This document shows positions 11,904 to 21,854 of a DNA stretch of 64,000 nucleotides, one piece after another; position 1 is the first letter of the stretch, and each line of letters starts with the position of its first letter. Source of the DNA: Holdemania sp. Marseille-P2844 (GTDB lineage: Bacteria > Bacillota_I > Bacilli_A > Erysipelotrichales > Erysipelotrichaceae); the NCBI RefSeq assembly GCF_900120005.1, contig NZ_LT635452.1, positions 248,001-312,000 of the forward strand. Reading direction: 5' to 3'. Below the pieces are notes generated by a model. That model searched no databases. It had not been told where the DNA came from and saw only the letters and a program-made list of their open reading frames with translations. Made by a program: the position numbers and the translations under genes.

Positions 11904-11939
11904 AAAGCCAGATTTGCCGGAAGCGATCTGGCTTTTTCC
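11904..11939 (+). terminator. Terminator of Xre unit and insertion target of intron copy 1
   Basis: Perfect 10-bp stem AAAGCCAGAT / ATCTGGCTTT followed by TTTTCC; the group II intron begins at the next base. Confidence 0.85.
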
Positions 11940-13861
11940 GTGTGCCGGGCATGGCATACATCTAGTTGGTGAAAATCCAACCACGGGTATTTACCGCCAA
12001 GTGTAGTGAACCACAAGTCGTTAGCAGTGATGTTAAGGGTGAAGGAAGTGGTGTAGCAAAATCTTCGAGGTTACGAACAGAAACCTGATGAGGCTAAATG
12101 GTGGATAAGGTTGCGAAACAAACCAAAGTCCAAAAGGTAAACGTAAAACCAAGACAGTAAATCAGGAACTTGTGAAGATAGGAAAGAGATGTATGTCTTA
12201 CCCCGGGAGGTCTTGTGAACGATGAAGTCCAATAAACTTTAAAATCAGGGATGGTAGCATCGGTCGAAAAAGGTTTATCACAAGAAGTCAGCTGAGGTCA
12301 TATTAGTTATCCAGCCTAGATAACGAAGGACTTAATGTATGTATAGTGTGAATCACTATGAGAAAATGTTCAAGCAATCCGAAAATGAGGATACTCTGAA
12401 ACAATGAATCGTAATCATTGATGAGGAAAGTAGTGGGGATGGTCTTGGATAAATCTACGAGTAGAGGAGGAACAGCGAATGAGATTGATAGAAAAGATGC
12501 TAAGTAAAAGAAATATGGAACTGGCGATAAAGAAAGTCAAGAGTAACAAAGGCGCACCGGGTGTTGATAACATGATGGTGGAAGAAATTGACAAATATTT
12601 TGAAATACATGGAGAGGAAATTATAACCGCAATCATGAATATGAAATATAAACCAAAGCCAGTAAGGAGAGTCTATATACCAAAAGCAGATGGAAAGCAA
12701 AGACCGCTAGGTATACCGACAGTAACAGATAGAGTAATACAACAAGCATTAGCGCAGATACTGAGCGAAATATATGAACCACATTTCAGTGAAAACAGTT
12801 ATGGGTTTCGCCCCAATAGAAGTGCACATAATGCGATGGAACAAGTATTAGAATATCTAAACGAAGGATACGAATGGGTTATTGACATAGATATAGAAAA
12901 ATATTTCGATACAGTACATCATGACAAGTTAATCTCAATACTTAGAGAACATGTGAATGAAAGAGAAATACTGCATCTGATACGTTCGTTCTTAAAAGCA
13001 GGAGTTATGGAAGATGGACTAGTAAGTCCAAATGAAGCAGGAGTACCACAAGGAGGACCACTCAGTCCAGTACTATCAAATATATATTTAGATAAGCTTG
13101 ATAAAGAACTTGAAGAGAGAGGGCTGCGCTTTGTGAGGTACGCTGATGATGGTAACATCTTCGTAAAGAGCGAAATGGCAGCAGAAAGAGTAATGAAATC
13201 AATCACATGGTGGCTAGAAAGAAAACTATTCTTAAAAGTGAGTGCGACAAAGACCAAAATCGTAAGACCGACGAAAAGTAATTTTCTAGGTTTTACGTTC
13301 TGGAAAGGAAGTATGGGATGGAAGTGTAGGCCAAGCGATAACAGGAAAGCGAAGTTATGCATGAAAATCAAAGAAATACTAAAACGGAAACACGCAGTAG
13401 CAAGACCATTAGCAGAGACATTTAAAAGAATAAACCAAATTATACGAGGATGGATAAACTATTTCCGTATCGGAAGTATGAAACAATTCTTGGATAAATT
13501 CGGACAATGGTTAAGACACAAAATAAGAGTGGTTATTATTAAGCAATGGAAGATACCGAAACGGATTTATATAAATCTGCAAAGACTGAATAAACTGCAA
13601 AATTTTTCCTTTACAGAGGAAGACATATTTAAAGTAGCAAATTCAAGACTAGGATGGTATCGAAGATGTGGAATGAATGTGGTAAACTACATCTTAAATC
13701 CCAGAATACTAGCCATAAAGAAAAAGGAAAGACAAGGCTTAGTCAATCCTTTAGAGTACTATCTAAGTTATTCGTGACAGCAATACATATGTAGCGCCGT
13801 ATACGAGATCCGTACGTACGGTGCAATGGGAGGGGCGAAATTTATTTTCCCTCTACCCTAT
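11940..13861 (+). mobile_element. Group II intron (class IIC-like), copy 1
   Basis: 1,922 bp. The 5' end is GTGTGCC, matching the GUGYG rule. Domain V is visible near 13793-13825: an AGC triad strand, an 8-bp lower helix GCGCCGTA / TACGGTGC, a two-base CG bulge and a 4-bp upper helix. Domain VI follows, with a bulged A seven bases from the end in CTACCCTAT, and the intron ends in AT. Ends were fixed by comparing the flanks of the two copies, which diverge outside this interval. It encodes one reverse transcriptase. The element lies immediately after an intrinsic terminator, which is how class C introns choose targets. Confidence 0.92.
12479..13777 (+). CDS. ltrA: Group II intron reverse transcriptase/maturase, copy 1
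   Basis: 432 residues behind GAGGAGGAAC. Reverse transcriptase blocks run from KGAPGVDNM through RPLGIPTVTDRVIQQ, YGFRPNRSAHNAM, the first catalytic Asp region VIDIDIEKYFD, PQGGPLSPVLSNIYL and the YADD box at residues 221-224. A maturase (X) region with IIRGWINYFRIGS and SRLGWYRRCG follows. No HNH endonuclease domain is present after it, as in class C introns. The protein splices and re-mobilises its own intron. Base composition is clearly more AT-rich than its neighbours, consistent with transfer. Confidence 0.95.
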   Translation: MRLIEKMLSKRNMELAIKKVKSNKGAPGVDNMMVEEIDKYFEIHGEEIITAIMNMKYKPKPVRRVYIPKADGKQRPLGIPTVTDRVIQQALAQILSEIYEPHFSENSYGFRPNRSAHNAMEQVLEYLNEGYEWVIDIDIEKYFDTVHHDKLISILREHVNEREILHLIRSFLKAGVMEDGLVSPNEAGVPQGGPLSPVLSNIYLDKLDKELEERGLRFVRYADDGNIFVKSEMAAERVMKSITWWLERKLFLKVSATKTKIVRPTKSNFLGFTFWKGSMGWKCRPSDNRKAKLCMKIKEILKRKHAVARPLAETFKRINQIIRGWINYFRIGSMKQFLDKFGQWLRHKIRVVIIKQWKIPKRIYINLQRLNKLQNFSFTEEDIFKVANSRLGWYRRCGMNVVNYILNPRILAIKKKERQGLVNPLEYYLSYS

Positions 13862-13954: not shown

Positions 13955-13960
13955 TATAAT
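13955..13960 (+). promoter_or_regulatory. -10 box before amidohydrolase pair
   Basis: TATAAT 29 bp before the start at 13989, between the intron end and the gene; -35 not convincing (CTGGAA region). Confidence 0.4.
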
Positions 13961-13988
13961 GGACATCAGGGAAAGGATGATGAATTCG

Positions 13989-15149
13989 ATGATTTTATTA
14001 AAAAACGGCTGTGTTCATAACGGCCGGGGACAGGTAAGCACCACGGATCTGTTGATTGACGGCGGAAAGATCGTCAAAATCGGCGAACATCTGGAAGCCT
14101 CCGGCGCAGACGTGATTGACGCTGCCGGGATGCATGTGTTTCCAGGCTTTATTGATCCGCTGAGCGATTGGGGAATTCTTGGCCCGGGCCGGGAAATCCG
14201 CGGCAACGCCAACGACAACGATGAACGCTCCGACGTGTTTACGCCGCAGCTGGACGTCAAATATGCCTTTAACGGCCGGGGAATTACCCGGCAGCAGATC
14301 TACGCCTTCGGCATCACCGCGGTCGGCGTCGCGCCGTCCAACAACAATGTGTTCGGCGGTCAGATGGCGGCTTTTGAGGTGCACGGCGTCAATCCGATGA
14401 AAATGTTGATCCGGGAAAAGGTCGGCATGAAAGCTTCGGTCACAGAGGCGGTGAAGGAAGCTTACGGTTCCCGCAATCTCGCGCCGATGACCAAAATGGG
14501 GATTTTTGCGATGCTGAAAGAAAAACTGGCGGCCGCGAAGGATTACCATCCGGAAGAAGATAAGGTTGAACGCGATGAAAAGCTGGCGGCCTTGAAACAG
14601 GTCGTCGATAAGCAGATGCCGCTGTTTGTCAGCTGCAACACGCCGGCGGAAATCCGTTCGGTGCTGCGGGCAGTCGCGGATTATGACCTCGATCTTGTGT
14701 TCTGCGGCGGCTTCGGCGTCGATGGTTCATTGCAGGAGCTGGCGGAAAAGCGCTGCGGTTTGATCGTTGCCAATCCCGCTAACGGTTTCAACAAATATAC
14801 GCGCAATACCGATTACGTGGGAATTGCCCAGCTGGCGAAGCAGGGCGCGACGGTGGCGTTCAGCGCGGCGGATAATGGTTTTGGCGGCCGCGAGGATCTG
14901 TTGTGGTCGGCGTTGGAAATGCAGAAAGCGATTCATGACAGCGAAACCGTGCTGACGATGCTGACCTACAACGCGGCGAAGCTCTTGGGGATCGAACAGC
15001 TGACCGGTTCGTTGGAAGAAGGCAAGCGCGCCGATCTCGTCTTGTGGAGCGCCAATCCGATCACCAGCTACAAGGGCGCCGTGGAAATGACGATCGCCAA
15101 CGGTGAAATTCTGTATCGGAAAGGAGATGCGATGAAATGCTTCTTATAA
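13989..15149 (+). CDS. Amidohydrolase-family protein lacking the metal ligands (probable pseudoenzyme)
   Basis: 386 residues from ATG 13989 (AAAGGATG upstream; ATGs at 13959 and 13980 also in frame). The fold is that of imidazolonepropionase/dihydroorotase-like amidohydrolases: N-terminal beta-sandwich with DLLIDGGKIVKIGEHLEA, barrel, and C-terminal LTGSLEEGKRADLVLWSANP. Where relatives have DxHxH this protein reads DPLSD (residues 56-60); the barrel histidines align with VSCNT and FCGGFG. Only the late Asp in SAADNGF remains. It is thus unlikely to be a metal hydrolase and may be a structural or regulatory partner of the next gene product, with which it shares general organisation and a 13-nt overlap. 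Confidence 0.85.
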   Translation: MILLKNGCVHNGRGQVSTTDLLIDGGKIVKIGEHLEASGADVIDAAGMHVFPGFIDPLSDWGILGPGREIRGNANDNDERSDVFTPQLDVKYAFNGRGITRQQIYAFGITAVGVAPSNNNVFGGQMAAFEVHGVNPMKMLIREKVGMKASVTEAVKEAYGSRNLAPMTKMGIFAMLKEKLAAAKDYHPEEDKVERDEKLAALKQVVDKQMPLFVSCNTPAEIRSVLRAVADYDLDLVFCGGFGVDGSLQELAEKRCGLIVANPANGFNKYTRNTDYVGIAQLAKQGATVAFSAADNGFGGREDLLWSALEMQKAIHDSETVLTMLTYNAAKLLGIEQLTGSLEEGKRADLVLWSANPITSYKGAVEMTIANGEILYRKGDAMKCFL

Positions 15150-16297
15150 AAAATGGCAAAGTCCTGACGATGGGGCCGCAGGGCGTTCTGGAACAGGCCG
15201 ACGTGCTGATCGGCGACGATGGCAAAATCATCGAGGTGGCCGCGAATCTGGAAGCCCCCGGGGCAGAAATTCTGGATGCGAGCGGTAAAATCGTCATGCC
15301 GGGGCTGGTCGACGCGCATTCGCATATCGGCGGCTTCGATACGGATACCGGAGCACAGGATCTCAATGAACTGACCAAACCGCAGACGCCGGAAATTCAG
15401 GCTTACGACGGCATCAATCCGCTTGACCGTTCCTTTATGGAATCTGCAAAGGCCGGAATTACGACCAGCGCGATTACGCCGGGCAGCGGCAACGTGATCT
15501 GCGGCTTAGCGTGCGCCGTCAAATCAGCGGGGACGTCGCTGGCCAGCCGGACGCTGCGCAATCCGATCGCGCTGAAAGCGGCGATGGGCGTGAACCCGAA
15601 GGGCGTTTACGGACCGCGCACAGCGCTGCCGATGTCGCGTTTAGGCGTGGCGGATCTGTTTCGCGATTACTTCCTCAAAGTAAAGGACTATCAGGCGAAA
15701 AAAGTTCTGGGTGTAAGTGATCCGGAGAAAATGCCGAAGTTCGATCAGGGGATGGAAAACGGACTGCTGGTTCTGGAAAAGAAAATTCCGCTCAAGGTGC
15801 ATTGTTATCAGCACGACATGATGTCATTGCTGCAGCTGGCGGATGAATTTGATTTCGACGTGACGCTTGATCATGCGTTAGGGTCCAGCGATTTCTATGA
15901 TGAGATCGCTTCGAGCAAGCATGTCCGCGGCGTGATTTACGGTCCGCTGGGTGCGCCGCTGTTTGGCGGCGAGGGCTGCAAGGTTGATATCGACTGTCTG
16001 GCTGAGCTGGACCGGCGGGGCGTCTGCTGCGCAATCATGACGGACGGCCCGTGCTTTGTTCCGTATATGATCATCACGCAGGCCGGCGAAGCGGTGCGTA
16101 CCGGTCTGGATGAGCTGCGTGCGCTGGCGATGATTACGATCAACGCCGCAAAGATCATCGGCTGCGACGACTGGGTCGGTTCGTTAGAAGCGGGCAAAGA
16201 CGGCGACGTGCTGATTTTTGACGGTATGCCGGCAGTTGATACCGATGCGCGCAACCTCTGCACGATCATCGACGGCAAGATCGTTTATCAGGCGTAA
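15137..16297 (+). CDS. Amidohydrolase (imidazolonepropionase-like), metal ligands intact
   Basis: 386 residues; ATG 15137 lies inside the end of the previous gene behind AAGGAGATG. Metal-site residues are present: HSH at 61-63 in LVDAHSHIGGF, His222 in LKVHCYQHD, His246 in TLDHALGS and an Asp in CCAIMTDGPCF. The C-terminal beta-sandwich strand VGSLEAGKDGDVLIFDG is typical. It probably hydrolyses a cyclic amide or related C-N bond in the cytoplasm; the substrate is unknown. Paired with the ligand-less paralogue upstream as an overlapping two-gene operon. Confidence 0.88.
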   Translation: MLLIKNGKVLTMGPQGVLEQADVLIGDDGKIIEVAANLEAPGAEILDASGKIVMPGLVDAHSHIGGFDTDTGAQDLNELTKPQTPEIQAYDGINPLDRSFMESAKAGITTSAITPGSGNVICGLACAVKSAGTSLASRTLRNPIALKAAMGVNPKGVYGPRTALPMSRLGVADLFRDYFLKVKDYQAKKVLGVSDPEKMPKFDQGMENGLLVLEKKIPLKVHCYQHDMMSLLQLADEFDFDVTLDHALGSSDFYDEIASSKHVRGVIYGPLGAPLFGGEGCKVDIDCLAELDRRGVCCAIMTDGPCFVPYMIITQAGEAVRTGLDELRALAMITINAAKIIGCDDWVGSLEAGKDGDVLIFDGMPAVDTDARNLCTIIDGKIVYQA

Positions 16298-16310: not shown

Positions 16311-16336
16311 AAGGCTTGCCCGCTGCGGTAAGCCTT
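16311..16336 (+). terminator. Terminator after amidohydrolase operon
   Basis: 10-bp stem AAGGCTTGCC / GGTAAGCCTT with one G-U pair and a 6-base loop; weak T tract TTTGCTTGCTTT. Confidence 0.6.
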
Positions 16337-17067: not shown

Positions 17068-17118
17068 GTTATCCATCGTGAATAATTCATGAAAAACAAG
17101 GAAAGGAAGGGAGAAATC

Positions 17119-18516
17119 ATGTTTTTAGACACAAAAAAAGCGCAGCGGTATCTCGACCGGGCATTGGCGCGGGGCGGCGATTTCGCGGAGCTGTTTGAGG
17201 AAGAAAAGTGGACGTGCAGCGCTTCGATGCTCAACGGGAAACTGGAGGCGGCCAACAGCGGATTACGCTGGGGGCTGTCGATTAGGATCTTTGACGGGCT
17301 GCGCACGGTGTACGGCTATACCAACGAGCAGGAGGAGGAAAAGATCCTCACGGTGATCGATCAGCTGACCGCGGCGATCGGCCGCAAACGTGAGGCGGAA
17401 TGTCCGGCGATTCAGGAACAAATTATTCAGGATCAGCACGCCCCGGAAATTCCCGTGCAAAGCGTGACGTTAGCCCAGCGCCGGGCTTTGATGCAGCGGG
17501 CCAACGACGCGCTGCTGAACTACGATCCGGTGATCAAAAAAGCGATAGTCAATCTGGCTGATGAAGACCAGACCGTCATCATCGCCTCCAGCGACGGCAG
17601 GCTGGTGCGCGATAACCGCCAGCGGACGCGGCTGCGCATGCAGGCGGTCGCGATGGACGGCGACCGGATGCAGAATTCTGCGAAAGCACCGGGCGCGCAT
17701 GCCGGCTATGAATTCTATGATCAGATCGACGTCGAAGCGATGGCACGGGACGCTGCCCGCACGGCCAAGGTGATGCTGAACGCCGACGAATGCCCGAGCG
17801 GGGAAATGACCGTCGTGATCGACAACGGTTTTGGCGGCGTCATCTTCCATGAAGCCTGCGGCCATTCCTTAGAAGCCACCAGCGTTGCTTACGGCAATTC
17901 TGTCTTCTGCGGCAAGCTGGGTCAAAAGGTGGCCAGCGAGCTGGTCAACGCCGTTGACGACGGAACGATTCCGCATGCCTGGGGTTCCAACAATATCGAC
18001 GATGAAGGCCAGGCCACCCGCCGCAATCTGTTGATCGAAAACGGCGTGCTGAAGGGCTATTTGATCGATCCGCTGAATGCCCGGCGGATGGGTATGGAAG
18101 CGACCGGCTCCGCGCGCCGTCAGGATTACACCTTTGAACCGACGTCGCGGATGACCAATACCTTCTTGTTGAACGGCACGTCGACGTTTGAGGAAATTAT
18201 CGCCGATACGCCGTTAGGGTTGTATGCCAAGCGTTTAGGCGGCGGATCCGTGAATCCGGTCACCGGTGATTTCAACTTCGCGGTCCTGGAAGCCTATATG
18301 ATCCGCGACGGCAAGCTGGCTGAACCGGTGCGGGGCGCGACCCTGATTGGCAACGGCGCGGAAATTCTGTTCAGAATTGATAAGATTGCGGACAACGGTT
18401 CGCGCGAGCAGGGGATGTGCGGTTCCAAGAGCGGTTCGATTCCGACGGATGTCGGCCAGCCGACGATCCGCGTTACGCACATGACGGTCGGCGGCAAAGG
18501 AGGAAAATTGAAATGA
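17119..18516 (+). CDS. tldD: TldD metalloprotease
   Basis: 465 residues from ATG 17119, behind AGGGAGA; an upstream ATG at 17089 lacks a ribosome site. The TldD zinc motif HEACGH is at about 244-249 within GFGGVIFHEACGHSLEA, with the expected glycine-rich GNSVFCGKLGQ following and a C-terminal GxCGSKSGSIP region. TldD pairs with TldE to form a cytosolic protease that degrades unfolded peptides and matures some modified peptides. Its stop overlaps tldE as ATGA. Confidence 0.94.
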   Translation: MFLDTKKAQRYLDRALARGGDFAELFEEEKWTCSASMLNGKLEAANSGLRWGLSIRIFDGLRTVYGYTNEQEEEKILTVIDQLTAAIGRKREAECPAIQEQIIQDQHAPEIPVQSVTLAQRRALMQRANDALLNYDPVIKKAIVNLADEDQTVIIASSDGRLVRDNRQRTRLRMQAVAMDGDRMQNSAKAPGAHAGYEFYDQIDVEAMARDAARTAKVMLNADECPSGEMTVVIDNGFGGVIFHEACGHSLEATSVAYGNSVFCGKLGQKVASELVNAVDDGTIPHAWGSNNIDDEGQATRRNLLIENGVLKGYLIDPLNARRMGMEATGSARRQDYTFEPTSRMTNTFLLNGTSTFEEIIADTPLGLYAKRLGGGSVNPVTGDFNFAVLEAYMIRDGKLAEPVRGATLIGNGAEILFRIDKIADNGSREQGMCGSKSGSIPTDVGQPTIRVTHMTVGGKGGKLK

Positions 18517-19841
18517 TCGCGGAAACAATTTTAAGCTACGCAAAAGAAGAAGGCCTGGAAGAAGCGGAGGTCTATCAGAGTCAGACCCGGACGCTGCGCT
18601 TTGACATTCTGGACGGGCAGCCGCGCCAGTTTGTCGTTTCGGATAAAAATGGTCTCTCGCTGCGGGGGACGCGTCAGGGCCGCTGCGCCAGCGCCTATAC
18701 GGAGAAAACCGATGAAGCGTCATTGCGGGCCTTGGCGATTCAATGCCGCCAGCTGGCCGACGCTTTGGAAACAGAAGACACTGTGTTGTTAACGCCGGGA
18801 CAGACGCCGATGAACGACGACCGCGGCGATGATACACTCGCCCGCCGAACCGTGAGCGAGAAGATCGAATTCATGAAAAAGGTGGAAGCTGCGGCCCTGA
18901 AGCAGGATTCGCGAATCCTGCGGGTATCGGCCTGCGGTTATCAGGAAACGGAGTCCTTAACGACGCTGGCCAATACACAGGGGCTGAAGGCGATGCGGCG
19001 CTCGACGCTGGGCTTGATCACGCTGAGCGGCATCGCTTCCAATGGGAAAGAACAGACCAACGGCTTCAGCTGGCGTGCGATCAAGGATTTGGATGAGGAT
19101 AAAGCGGCTGAATTCGTTGAGGAAGCGGTTCGGGAAGCGGTGAACAAGCTGGACGCTGTGCGGATTCCTTCCGGCAGGTACCGGACAATTTTACGTTATG
19201 ACGTCGCGACGGATCTGTTGGCTTCCTTATGGGCAATGTTCAGCGCTGACCAGATTCAAAAGGATTTATCCATTCTGAAAGACCGGCAGGGTGAGAACAT
19301 CATGAGTCCGCTGATCACTATCGTTGACGAACCGCAGTTGCCCGATGGCTTTTCCAGCTGTGATTTCGATGATGAAGGCGTGCCGACCCAGCGCACAGTG
19401 ATCGTCGAAAACGGTGTATTCAAGGAAGCTTTATATGACCGCAAGAGCGCGCTGAAAGGCAGCCGGACTTCGACGGGCAACGGGTTTAAAAACGGCTGCA
19501 GCGCTCCGGTTCAGGTTTCGCCGACCAACCTGCTTGTAAAACCGGGGGATTTATCCCTGGATGAAATGATCACGCAGATCGAGGACGGCGTGCTGATTAC
19601 CGACTTACAAGGTCTGCACGCGGGACTGAACCCGCTGACGAGTGATTTCTCATTGCAGGCCAGCGGTTTTAAAATCGAACAGGGCAAGCTGGCCTATCCG
19701 GTTCATTTGATCACGATTGCGGGGAACTATCTTGAAATGATGAATTCAATTCTTGCCTTAGGCCATGACGGCCGTCAGGATTTGAACAGCGTGTGCTGTG
19801 GATCCCTGCTTGTCGATCAACTCGCAATATCTGGAGAATAA
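18513..19841 (+). CDS. tldE: TldE/PmbA protease subunit
   Basis: 442 residues from ATG 18513, behind AAAGGAGG; a longer frame from 18417 lies inside tldD. It has the overall TldD/PmbA fold but no HExxxH, as expected for TldE, which is the non-metal subunit of the heterodimer. Recognisable stretches are TGNGFKNGCSAPVQVSPTN and the C-terminal AGNYLEMMNSI. No precursor peptide gene was seen nearby, so a housekeeping or quality-control role is likelier than a dedicated peptide-maturation role. Confidence 0.92.
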   Translation: MIAETILSYAKEEGLEEAEVYQSQTRTLRFDILDGQPRQFVVSDKNGLSLRGTRQGRCASAYTEKTDEASLRALAIQCRQLADALETEDTVLLTPGQTPMNDDRGDDTLARRTVSEKIEFMKKVEAAALKQDSRILRVSACGYQETESLTTLANTQGLKAMRRSTLGLITLSGIASNGKEQTNGFSWRAIKDLDEDKAAEFVEEAVREAVNKLDAVRIPSGRYRTILRYDVATDLLASLWAMFSADQIQKDLSILKDRQGENIMSPLITIVDEPQLPDGFSSCDFDDEGVPTQRTVIVENGVFKEALYDRKSALKGSRTSTGNGFKNGCSAPVQVSPTNLLVKPGDLSLDEMITQIEDGVLITDLQGLHAGLNPLTSDFSLQASGFKIEQGKLAYPVHLITIAGNYLEMMNSILALGHDGRQDLNSVCCGSLLVDQLAISGE

Positions 19842-19898: not shown

Positions 19899-21820
19899 GT
19901 GTGCCGGGCATGGCATACATCTAGTTGGTGAAAATCCAACCACGGGTATTTACCGCCAAGTGTAGTGAACCACAAGTCGTTAGCAGTGATGTTAAGGGTG
20001 AAGGAAGTGGTGTAGCAAAATCTTCGAGGTTACGAACAGAAACCTGATGAGGCTAAATGGTGGATAAGGTTGCGAAACAAACCAAAGTCCAAAAGGTAAA
20101 CGTAAAACCAAGACAGTAAATCAGGAACTTGTGAAGATAGGAAAGAGATGTATGTCTTACCCCGGGAGGTCTTGTGAACGATGAAGTCCAATAAACTTTA
20201 AAATCAGGGATGGTAGCATCGGTCGAAAAAGGTTTATCACAAGAAGTCAGCTGAGGTCATATTAGTTATCCAGCCTAGATAACGAAGGACTTAATGTATG
20301 TATAGTGTGAATCACTATGAGAAAATGTTCAAGCAATCCGAAAATGAGGATACTCTGAAACAATGAATCGTAATCATTGATGAGGAAAGTAGTGGGGATG
20401 GTCTTGGATAAATCTACGAGTAGAGGAGGAACAGCGAATGAGATTGATAGAAAAGATGCTAAGTAAAAGAAATATGGAACTGGCGATAAAGAAAGTCAAG
20501 AGTAACAAAGGCGCACCGGGTGTTGATAACATGATGGTGGAAGAAATTGACAAATATTTTGAAATACATGGAGAGGAAATTATAACCGCAATCATGAATA
20601 TGAAATATAAACCAAAGCCAGTAAGGAGAGTCTATATACCAAAAGCAGATGGAAAGCAAAGACCGCTAGGTATACCGACAGTAACAGATAGAGTAATACA
20701 ACAAGCATTAGCGCAGATACTGAGCGAAATATATGAACCACATTTCAGTGAAAACAGTTATGGGTTTCGCCCCAATAGAAGTGCACATAATGCGATGGAA
20801 CAAGTATTAGAATATCTAAACGAAGGATACGAATGGGTTATTGACATAGATATAGAAAAATATTTCGATACAGTACATCATGACAAGTTAATCTCAATAC
20901 TTAGAGAACATGTGAATGAAAGAGAAATACTGCATCTGATACGTTCGTTCTTAAAAGCAGGAGTTATGGAAGATGGACTAGTAAGTCCAAATGAAGCAGG
21001 AGTACCACAAGGAGGACCACTCAGTCCAGTACTATCAAATATATATTTAGATAAGCTTGATAAAGAACTTGAAGAGAGAGGGCTGCGCTTTGTGAGGTAC
21101 GCTGATGATGGTAACATCTTCGTAAAGAGCGAAATGGCAGCAGAAAGAGTAATGAAATCAATCACATGGTGGCTAGAAAGAAAACTATTCTTAAAAGTGA
21201 GTGCGACAAAGACCAAAATCGTAAGACCGACGAAAAGTAATTTTCTAGGTTTTACGTTCTGGAAAGGAAGTATGGGATGGAAGTGTAGGCCAAGCGATAA
21301 CAGGAAAGCGAAGTTATGCATGAAAATCAAAGAAATACTAAAACGGAAACACGCAGTAGCAAGACCATTAGCAGAGACATTTAAAAGAATAAACCAAATT
21401 ATACGAGGATGGATAAACTATTTCCGTATCGGAAGTATGAAACAATTCTTGGATAAATTCGGACAATGGTTAAGACACAAAATAAGAGTGGTTATTATTA
21501 AGCAATGGAAGATACCGAAACGGATTTATATAAATCTGCAAAGACTGAATAAACTGCAAAATTTTTCCTTTACAGAGGAAGACATATTTAAAGTAGCAAA
21601 TTCAAGACTAGGATGGTATCGAAGATGTGGAATGAATGTGGTAAACTACATCTTAAATCCCAGAATACTAGCCATAAAGAAAAAGGAAAGACAAGGCTTA
21701 GTCAATCCTTTAGAGTACTATCTAAGTTATTCGTGACAGCAATACATATGTAGCGCCGTATACGAGATCCGTACGTACGGTGCAATGGGAGGGGCGAAAT
21801 TTATTTTCCCTCTACCCTAT
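19899..21820 (+). mobile_element. Group II intron (class IIC-like), copy 2
   Basis: 1,922 bp, same length and same orientation as copy 1 and, as far as compared, the same sequence, displaced by exactly 7,959 bp. Begins GTGTGCC behind the tldDE terminator and ends CTACCCTAT. Identity of the copies points to recent retrotransposition. Confidence 0.92.
20438..21736 (+). CDS. ltrA: Group II intron reverse transcriptase/maturase, copy 2
   Basis: 432 residues, identical in translation to the protein of copy 1, including the YADD box at 221-224 and the maturase region, again without an endonuclease domain. Both copies therefore look functional. Confidence 0.95.
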   Translation: MRLIEKMLSKRNMELAIKKVKSNKGAPGVDNMMVEEIDKYFEIHGEEIITAIMNMKYKPKPVRRVYIPKADGKQRPLGIPTVTDRVIQQALAQILSEIYEPHFSENSYGFRPNRSAHNAMEQVLEYLNEGYEWVIDIDIEKYFDTVHHDKLISILREHVNEREILHLIRSFLKAGVMEDGLVSPNEAGVPQGGPLSPVLSNIYLDKLDKELEERGLRFVRYADDGNIFVKSEMAAERVMKSITWWLERKLFLKVSATKTKIVRPTKSNFLGFTFWKGSMGWKCRPSDNRKAKLCMKIKEILKRKHAVARPLAETFKRINQIIRGWINYFRIGSMKQFLDKFGQWLRHKIRVVIIKQWKIPKRIYINLQRLNKLQNFSFTEEDIFKVANSRLGWYRRCGMNVVNYILNPRILAIKKKERQGLVNPLEYYLSYS

Positions 21821-21854
21821 TTCTTAAATATGCTGGAAAATTTTACCTTTGGCG

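Follow-up and report, generated by a model that had tools for sequence, protein, structure and literature searches.

A metal-ligand-less amidohydrolase encoded in tandem with a ligand-bearing paralogue in Holdemania and related genera: a candidate heteromer of peptide catabolism

The window, by which we mean the whole 64,000-nucleotide stretch of Holdemania DNA that was analysed, carries on its forward strand two amidohydrolase genes in tandem, one that encodes a protein devoid of metal ligands (gene A; 13989..15149) and one whose product keeps the HxH, His, His and Asp residues (gene B; 15137..16297). The reading frame of A is open from an ATG at 13959, with further in-frame ATGs at 13980 and 13989 and a stop at 15149; the start at 13989 gives the N-terminus seen in most relatives, and 13959 and 13980 are other possible starts. 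The two frames lie where an earlier note on this DNA had placed them and overlap by the 13 nt described there (15137..15149), and our reading of the sequence places a Shine-Dalgarno-like AAAGGAG inside A, 10 nt 5' of the B start (15120..15126). Together, the overlap and this internal motif suggest that translation of A and B may be coupled. Also on the forward strand, a terminator-like hairpin 3' of B (16311..16336), identified by consensus match only, is consistent with a two-gene operon.

The surroundings of the pair contain two kinds of element that deserve mention. About 130 bp upstream of A lies a forward-strand group II intron with a reverse transcriptase/maturase gene (intron 11937..13860; ORF 12479-13777), and because it sits so close to A and H. 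filiformis DSM 12042 lacks it at this position, expression of the A/B pair may be affected by it. A second copy of the intron, again with a reverse transcriptase, occupies approximately 19900-21825 and is 99.9% identical to the first over 1927 bp. Downstream of B, on the same strand, there follow a TldD-like metallopeptidase gene with a HEACGH motif (17089..18516) and a gene for its TldE-like partner without the HExxxH motif (18417..19841; listed from a GTG at 18417, with the true start probably near 18513). This TldD/TldE locus (17089-19841), itself encoding an enzyme/pseudoenzyme pair, adjoins A/B also in H. filiformis and H. massiliensis.

The proteins encoded by A and B are 27-28% identical (391 columns, E 4e-39 at 28%), and both match Pfam PF01979/PF07969 above the curated cut-off. 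Their AlphaFold2 predictions have a mean pLDDT of 90 for A and 95 for B, and for both the closest solved relative is a T. maritima amidohydrolase, 3ooq, by sequence (E 4e-41 for A, 1e-70 for B) as well as by predicted fold, in which it ranks far above all others (Z 48.5, rmsd 2.3 for A; Z 55.1, rmsd 1.7 for B). The proposal that A keeps the fold thus holds at the level of prediction, and sequence and fold homology make A a member of the amidohydrolase superfamily, to which B belongs by its Pfam matches, invariant ligands and 3ooq-like model. Our literature search found no paper describing 3ooq. The next fold matches, at Z of about 26, are prolidases, adenosine deaminases, imidazolonepropionase, Lys/Arg carboxypeptidase and isoaspartyl dipeptidases. 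Among them, the prolidases and L-Lys/L-Arg carboxypeptidases (3feq/3n2c, 2qs8, 3be7, 3mtw) have peptide substrates that fit the A/B neighbourhood, but these enzymes, unlike A, are catalytically complete, and we know of no pseudoenzyme partner for any of them.

The alignment places L68, D70, S225, G250 and A304 of A opposite H61, H63, H222, H246 and D303 of B, and the contrasts in motif to which the earlier note drew attention (DPLSD in A against DAHSH in B, with VSCNT and FCGGFG also in A) are present in the sequence; A therefore lacks the HxH, His, His and Asp set that would mark a catalytic amidohydrolase. None of the five ligand residues is kept in 20 of the 21 A-type proteins read, and the remaining one (from genome G145) keeps just one His, that of the second HxH position, whereas all five are invariant across the 21 B rows. 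The only His conserved in at least 85% of the aligned A rows is H20, which lies in the N-terminal sandwich domain, and no conserved His or Cys was found in the barrel of these 21 proteins. Other metal ligands in A, which would argue against its being a pseudoenzyme, thus find no support among His and Cys residues, and any metal site in A would have to be built from acids alone, those conserved being D30, D54, D86, D88, E89, D206, D285, E312 and D359.

The view that B is intact fared less uniformly, in that it stands for the five core ligands but fails for two other residues typical of the family. None of the B-type proteins read has the Glu of GENPKR or the second His of HAH, and nearly all show MGxNPKG in place of GENPKR, whereas both residues are retained in the other relatives. 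3ooq likewise keeps this Glu and all the histidines (DAHSH, HAH, EHG, CDHP), so that in comparison with it A is without any of the ligands and B is without the Glu. K147 is invariant in B and, judging from sequence, might be a carboxylated Lys; a profile alignment with dihydroorotase and a NagA-like protein singled out no residue of B as the bridging ligand of a binuclear site. Because the Glu and the second His are missing, B's own metal site is left uncertain, and their loss may count against any account in which A and B form a heteromer with B as the catalytic member.

In genomes of the order and the phylum, 92 readable amidohydrolase relatives were retrieved, which fall into three groups: A without ligands, B with the five core ligands, and C with ligands plus GENPKR, the C relatives occurring as singles or as intact tandem sets. 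Each group forms one side of a branch in the tree (SH-aLRT 100 for A, 94 for B and 99 for C), although the A protein of genome G039 is a long branch whose placement is unsure according to a warning of the tree program. The 24 A-type proteins retrieved by a profile of A, counting one interrupted form, score at least 406 bits, the best match after them scores 254, and they are distributed over 14 of the 272 genomes of the family and seven genera; a B profile retrieved 23 B-type proteins from exactly the same 14 genomes (Fisher p 1e-23 for co-occurrence, the genomes not being independent). A search of 395 genomes sampled from the class found no A-type protein outside the family, and none was found in the plasmid collection. 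A scan of genome contigs gave only four near relatives, and an A protein of H. filiformis DSM 12042 is 99% identical to that of the window.

The genome from which the window comes, a close relative of H. filiformis, has five tandem pairs of these amidohydrolases. Three are A/B pairs (C15:261959, C17:353188 and C17:424416), three being the number of A/B copies per Holdemania genome, and two bear ligands in both members (C14:266309/267461 and C15:463016/464164). This second kind of conserved tandem pair was seen at loci L004/L015, L063, L065, L066, L032, L033 and L035; in genera g1, g28 and g42 its two members fall into distinct clades, a pattern suggestive of heteromers made up of two intact paralogues. 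Elsewhere, four relatives stand in a row (L156 2627-7117, on G175:C90, and L157, on G102:C39), with successive genes overlapping by one base, with an aspartokinase-like gene adjoining the array and with the HxH motifs retained in the copies read.

In every pair read A stands immediately 5' of B, and a partner is missing only where the contig ends (G154 and G575:C34). The two genes overlap by 4, 10, 13 or 14 nt in the pairs read, the exception being G039 with a 1-nt gap. Given this order and the identical set of 14 genomes, the question of whether the pair is always linked, which the earlier note had left to phylogeny, can be answered in the affirmative. Separately built A and B trees have 15 of 18 splits in common, as opposed to a mean of 0.15 and a maximum of 2 with shuffled labels, the three differing splits being weak in one tree or in both, and we therefore conclude that A and B are inherited together. 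A and B distances are likewise correlated (r 0.885; Mantel 0 of 10,000), those of A being on average 1.5 times those of B. A natural A-B fusion was not seen.

Between Holdemania species, A has dN/dS values of 0.080 and 0.038, and B has values of 0.023, 0.035 and 0.050; outside these comparisons the ratio was saturated or had no value. By this measure A is under purifying selection, and the low ratios mean that it is functional. Together with the conservation of A, they rule out the idea that it is a decaying pseudogene; the ligand-less condition is a fixed state, due neither to chance nor to decay. One of the three A genes of H. filiformis DSM 12042 is split by approximately 6.1 kb (locus L052, G192:C28, 3636-9748) without a target duplication, and the B gene beside it stays open. 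Since this locus contains 3,046 N, the interruption may be an assembly join; if it is real, it may count against the idea that A and B form a heteromer.

Gene neighbours provide a lead to function. In six of the seven genera an S9 or M14 peptidase gene is found near at least one A/B locus, and in five of them (g4, g8, g20, g25 and g42) the pair stands beside genes of the S9 prolyl-oligopeptidase family and/or M14 carboxypeptidase genes, mostly accompanied by genes for a Dpp-type (dipeptide) ABC transporter. In g4 the S9 gene and B overlap, g20 and g25 share the order S9, M14, M14, A, B, and upstream of one Holdemania (g1) pair an S9 gene lies at a distance of about 6.6 kb (L014). Among C-type relatives an S9 gene is in reach at 1 of 26 loci. 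The peptidase enrichment at A/B loci has a Fisher p of 0.0013 by locus and of 4e-5 by genus versus loci, values that are uncorrected for kinship and come from flanks of varying length. Two tandem M14 carboxypeptidase-like paralogues, both retaining the HPNE motif, lie directly 5' of A at three loci (L056 7966-10733, L057 7599-10350 and L058 165-2941). On the other hand, neither S9 nor M14 was found in the flanks read of many Holdemania pairs or of the divergent G039 pair, and this counts against a peptide enzyme. The range of substrates, previously left open, can thus be narrowed, in that neighbouring genes point to peptides, and a peptide role for A/B is suggested by these gene neighbours and by the fold neighbours described above. 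As a clue to function we also weighed a gut bile salt hydrolase of the superfamily, which is metal-dependent, but set it aside, as the part of its description available to us offered no link to A/B (PMC13081902).

The explanation that we favour, with somewhat better than even confidence, is that A and B form a heteromer that acts in peptide catabolism and in which B alone is catalytic; contact between the two proteins, the role of A and the peptide nature of the substrate are what we infer. A and B would together make up a single heteromeric amidohydrolase, in which B would carry the only metal site and perform the hydrolysis. A would be a paralogue whose metal site was lost once, before the genera of the family split, and it would have been retained because B needs it for assembly, for stability or for shaping or gating the active-site entrance, as TldE may be taken to illustrate for TldD and the inactive pseudo-dihydroorotase for the aspartate transcarbamoylase of Pseudomonas. 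The complex would work inside the cell, most plausibly on a dipeptide or short peptide left from an imported oligopeptide that a Dpp-type transporter would bring in and that prolyl oligopeptidase and M14 carboxypeptidase would cut before it reached A/B.

TldD/TldE would be the closest analogue of this arrangement. Its metal is in TldD only, activity requires both proteins, and the two associate as an equimolar heterodimer (PMC5810440). As A and B would be, these are homologous subunits encoded by paralogous genes with metal ligands in one only (PMC5810440), and in A/B, too, the pairing is strict and the ligands are confined to one paralogue; however, the fold and family of TldD/TldE are unrelated to those of A/B, and contact is proven for TldD/TldE but only presumed for A/B. 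The pDHO of Pseudomonas aeruginosa aspartate transcarbamoylase is an inactive protein of the amidohydrolase superfamily that serves as an obligatory 1:1 subunit (PMC7053772), but its partner is an unrelated enzyme, whereas that of A would be its own homologue. In the literature, we found no paper on an amidohydrolase pseudoenzyme heterodimer or on Holdemania amidohydrolases, and the terms "amidohydrolase superfamily" and "pseudoenzyme" were joined only in a general review.

Two proteins of a shared pathway could likewise be linked and duplicated together, and the strongest competitor, to which we would give perhaps one chance in a handful, holds that A is a separate non-catalytic binding protein (a carrier, sensor or regulator) of B's pathway that is co-transcribed with B without being its subunit. 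Co-occurrence, linkage and congruent trees can all arise without contact, and A retains loop motifs of its active relatives (D86/N87/E89, N130, G133/G134 and K158), as a binding protein might. However, none of the 272 genomes of the family was found to have a B-type protein without A, and the A/B overlap is conserved across genera; for these reasons 1:1 subunits fit better than a dispensable accessory. It is improbable, in our estimate, that A is an enzyme by another route, either metal-independent or with a new site built of conserved acids (D86, D88, E89, D285 and E312). Its evolution under constraint and its own invariant residues, for example E312 and W316, would suit such an enzyme, but its barrel has no conserved His or Cys, and D86 and E89 are not new, since they belong to a segment common to B and single-copy relatives. 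Least credible of all, and disfavoured, is that A and B each form homo-oligomers only, with A as a decoy or a duplicate on its way to being lost. The larger A distances and the interrupted gene of DSM 12042 could be cited for this, but against it stand the dN/dS of A (0.04-0.08) and the fact that its frame is open in seven genera and in three paralogues.

Returning to the heteromer, it is conceivable, although we advance this only tentatively and would not expect it to hold in full, that A/B represents a new class, an obligate pseudoenzyme/enzyme amidohydrolase heteromer that as sampled belongs to one gut Firmicutes family, in which the dead subunit would complete or gate the live site and duplication of the pair would have given each cell several complexes that differ in peptide specificity. 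A/B offers a replicated natural case of an enzyme seemingly dependent on its dead sister, one that arose once, occurs in seven genera and is present as three parallel pairs in single genomes, and A can show which residues must stay in a pseudoenzyme. There is also a caution here for annotation pipelines, as A passes the Pfam cut-off and would be labelled an active amidohydrolase. For the organisms themselves, A/B is a candidate route of peptide use in Erysipelotrichales of the human gut.
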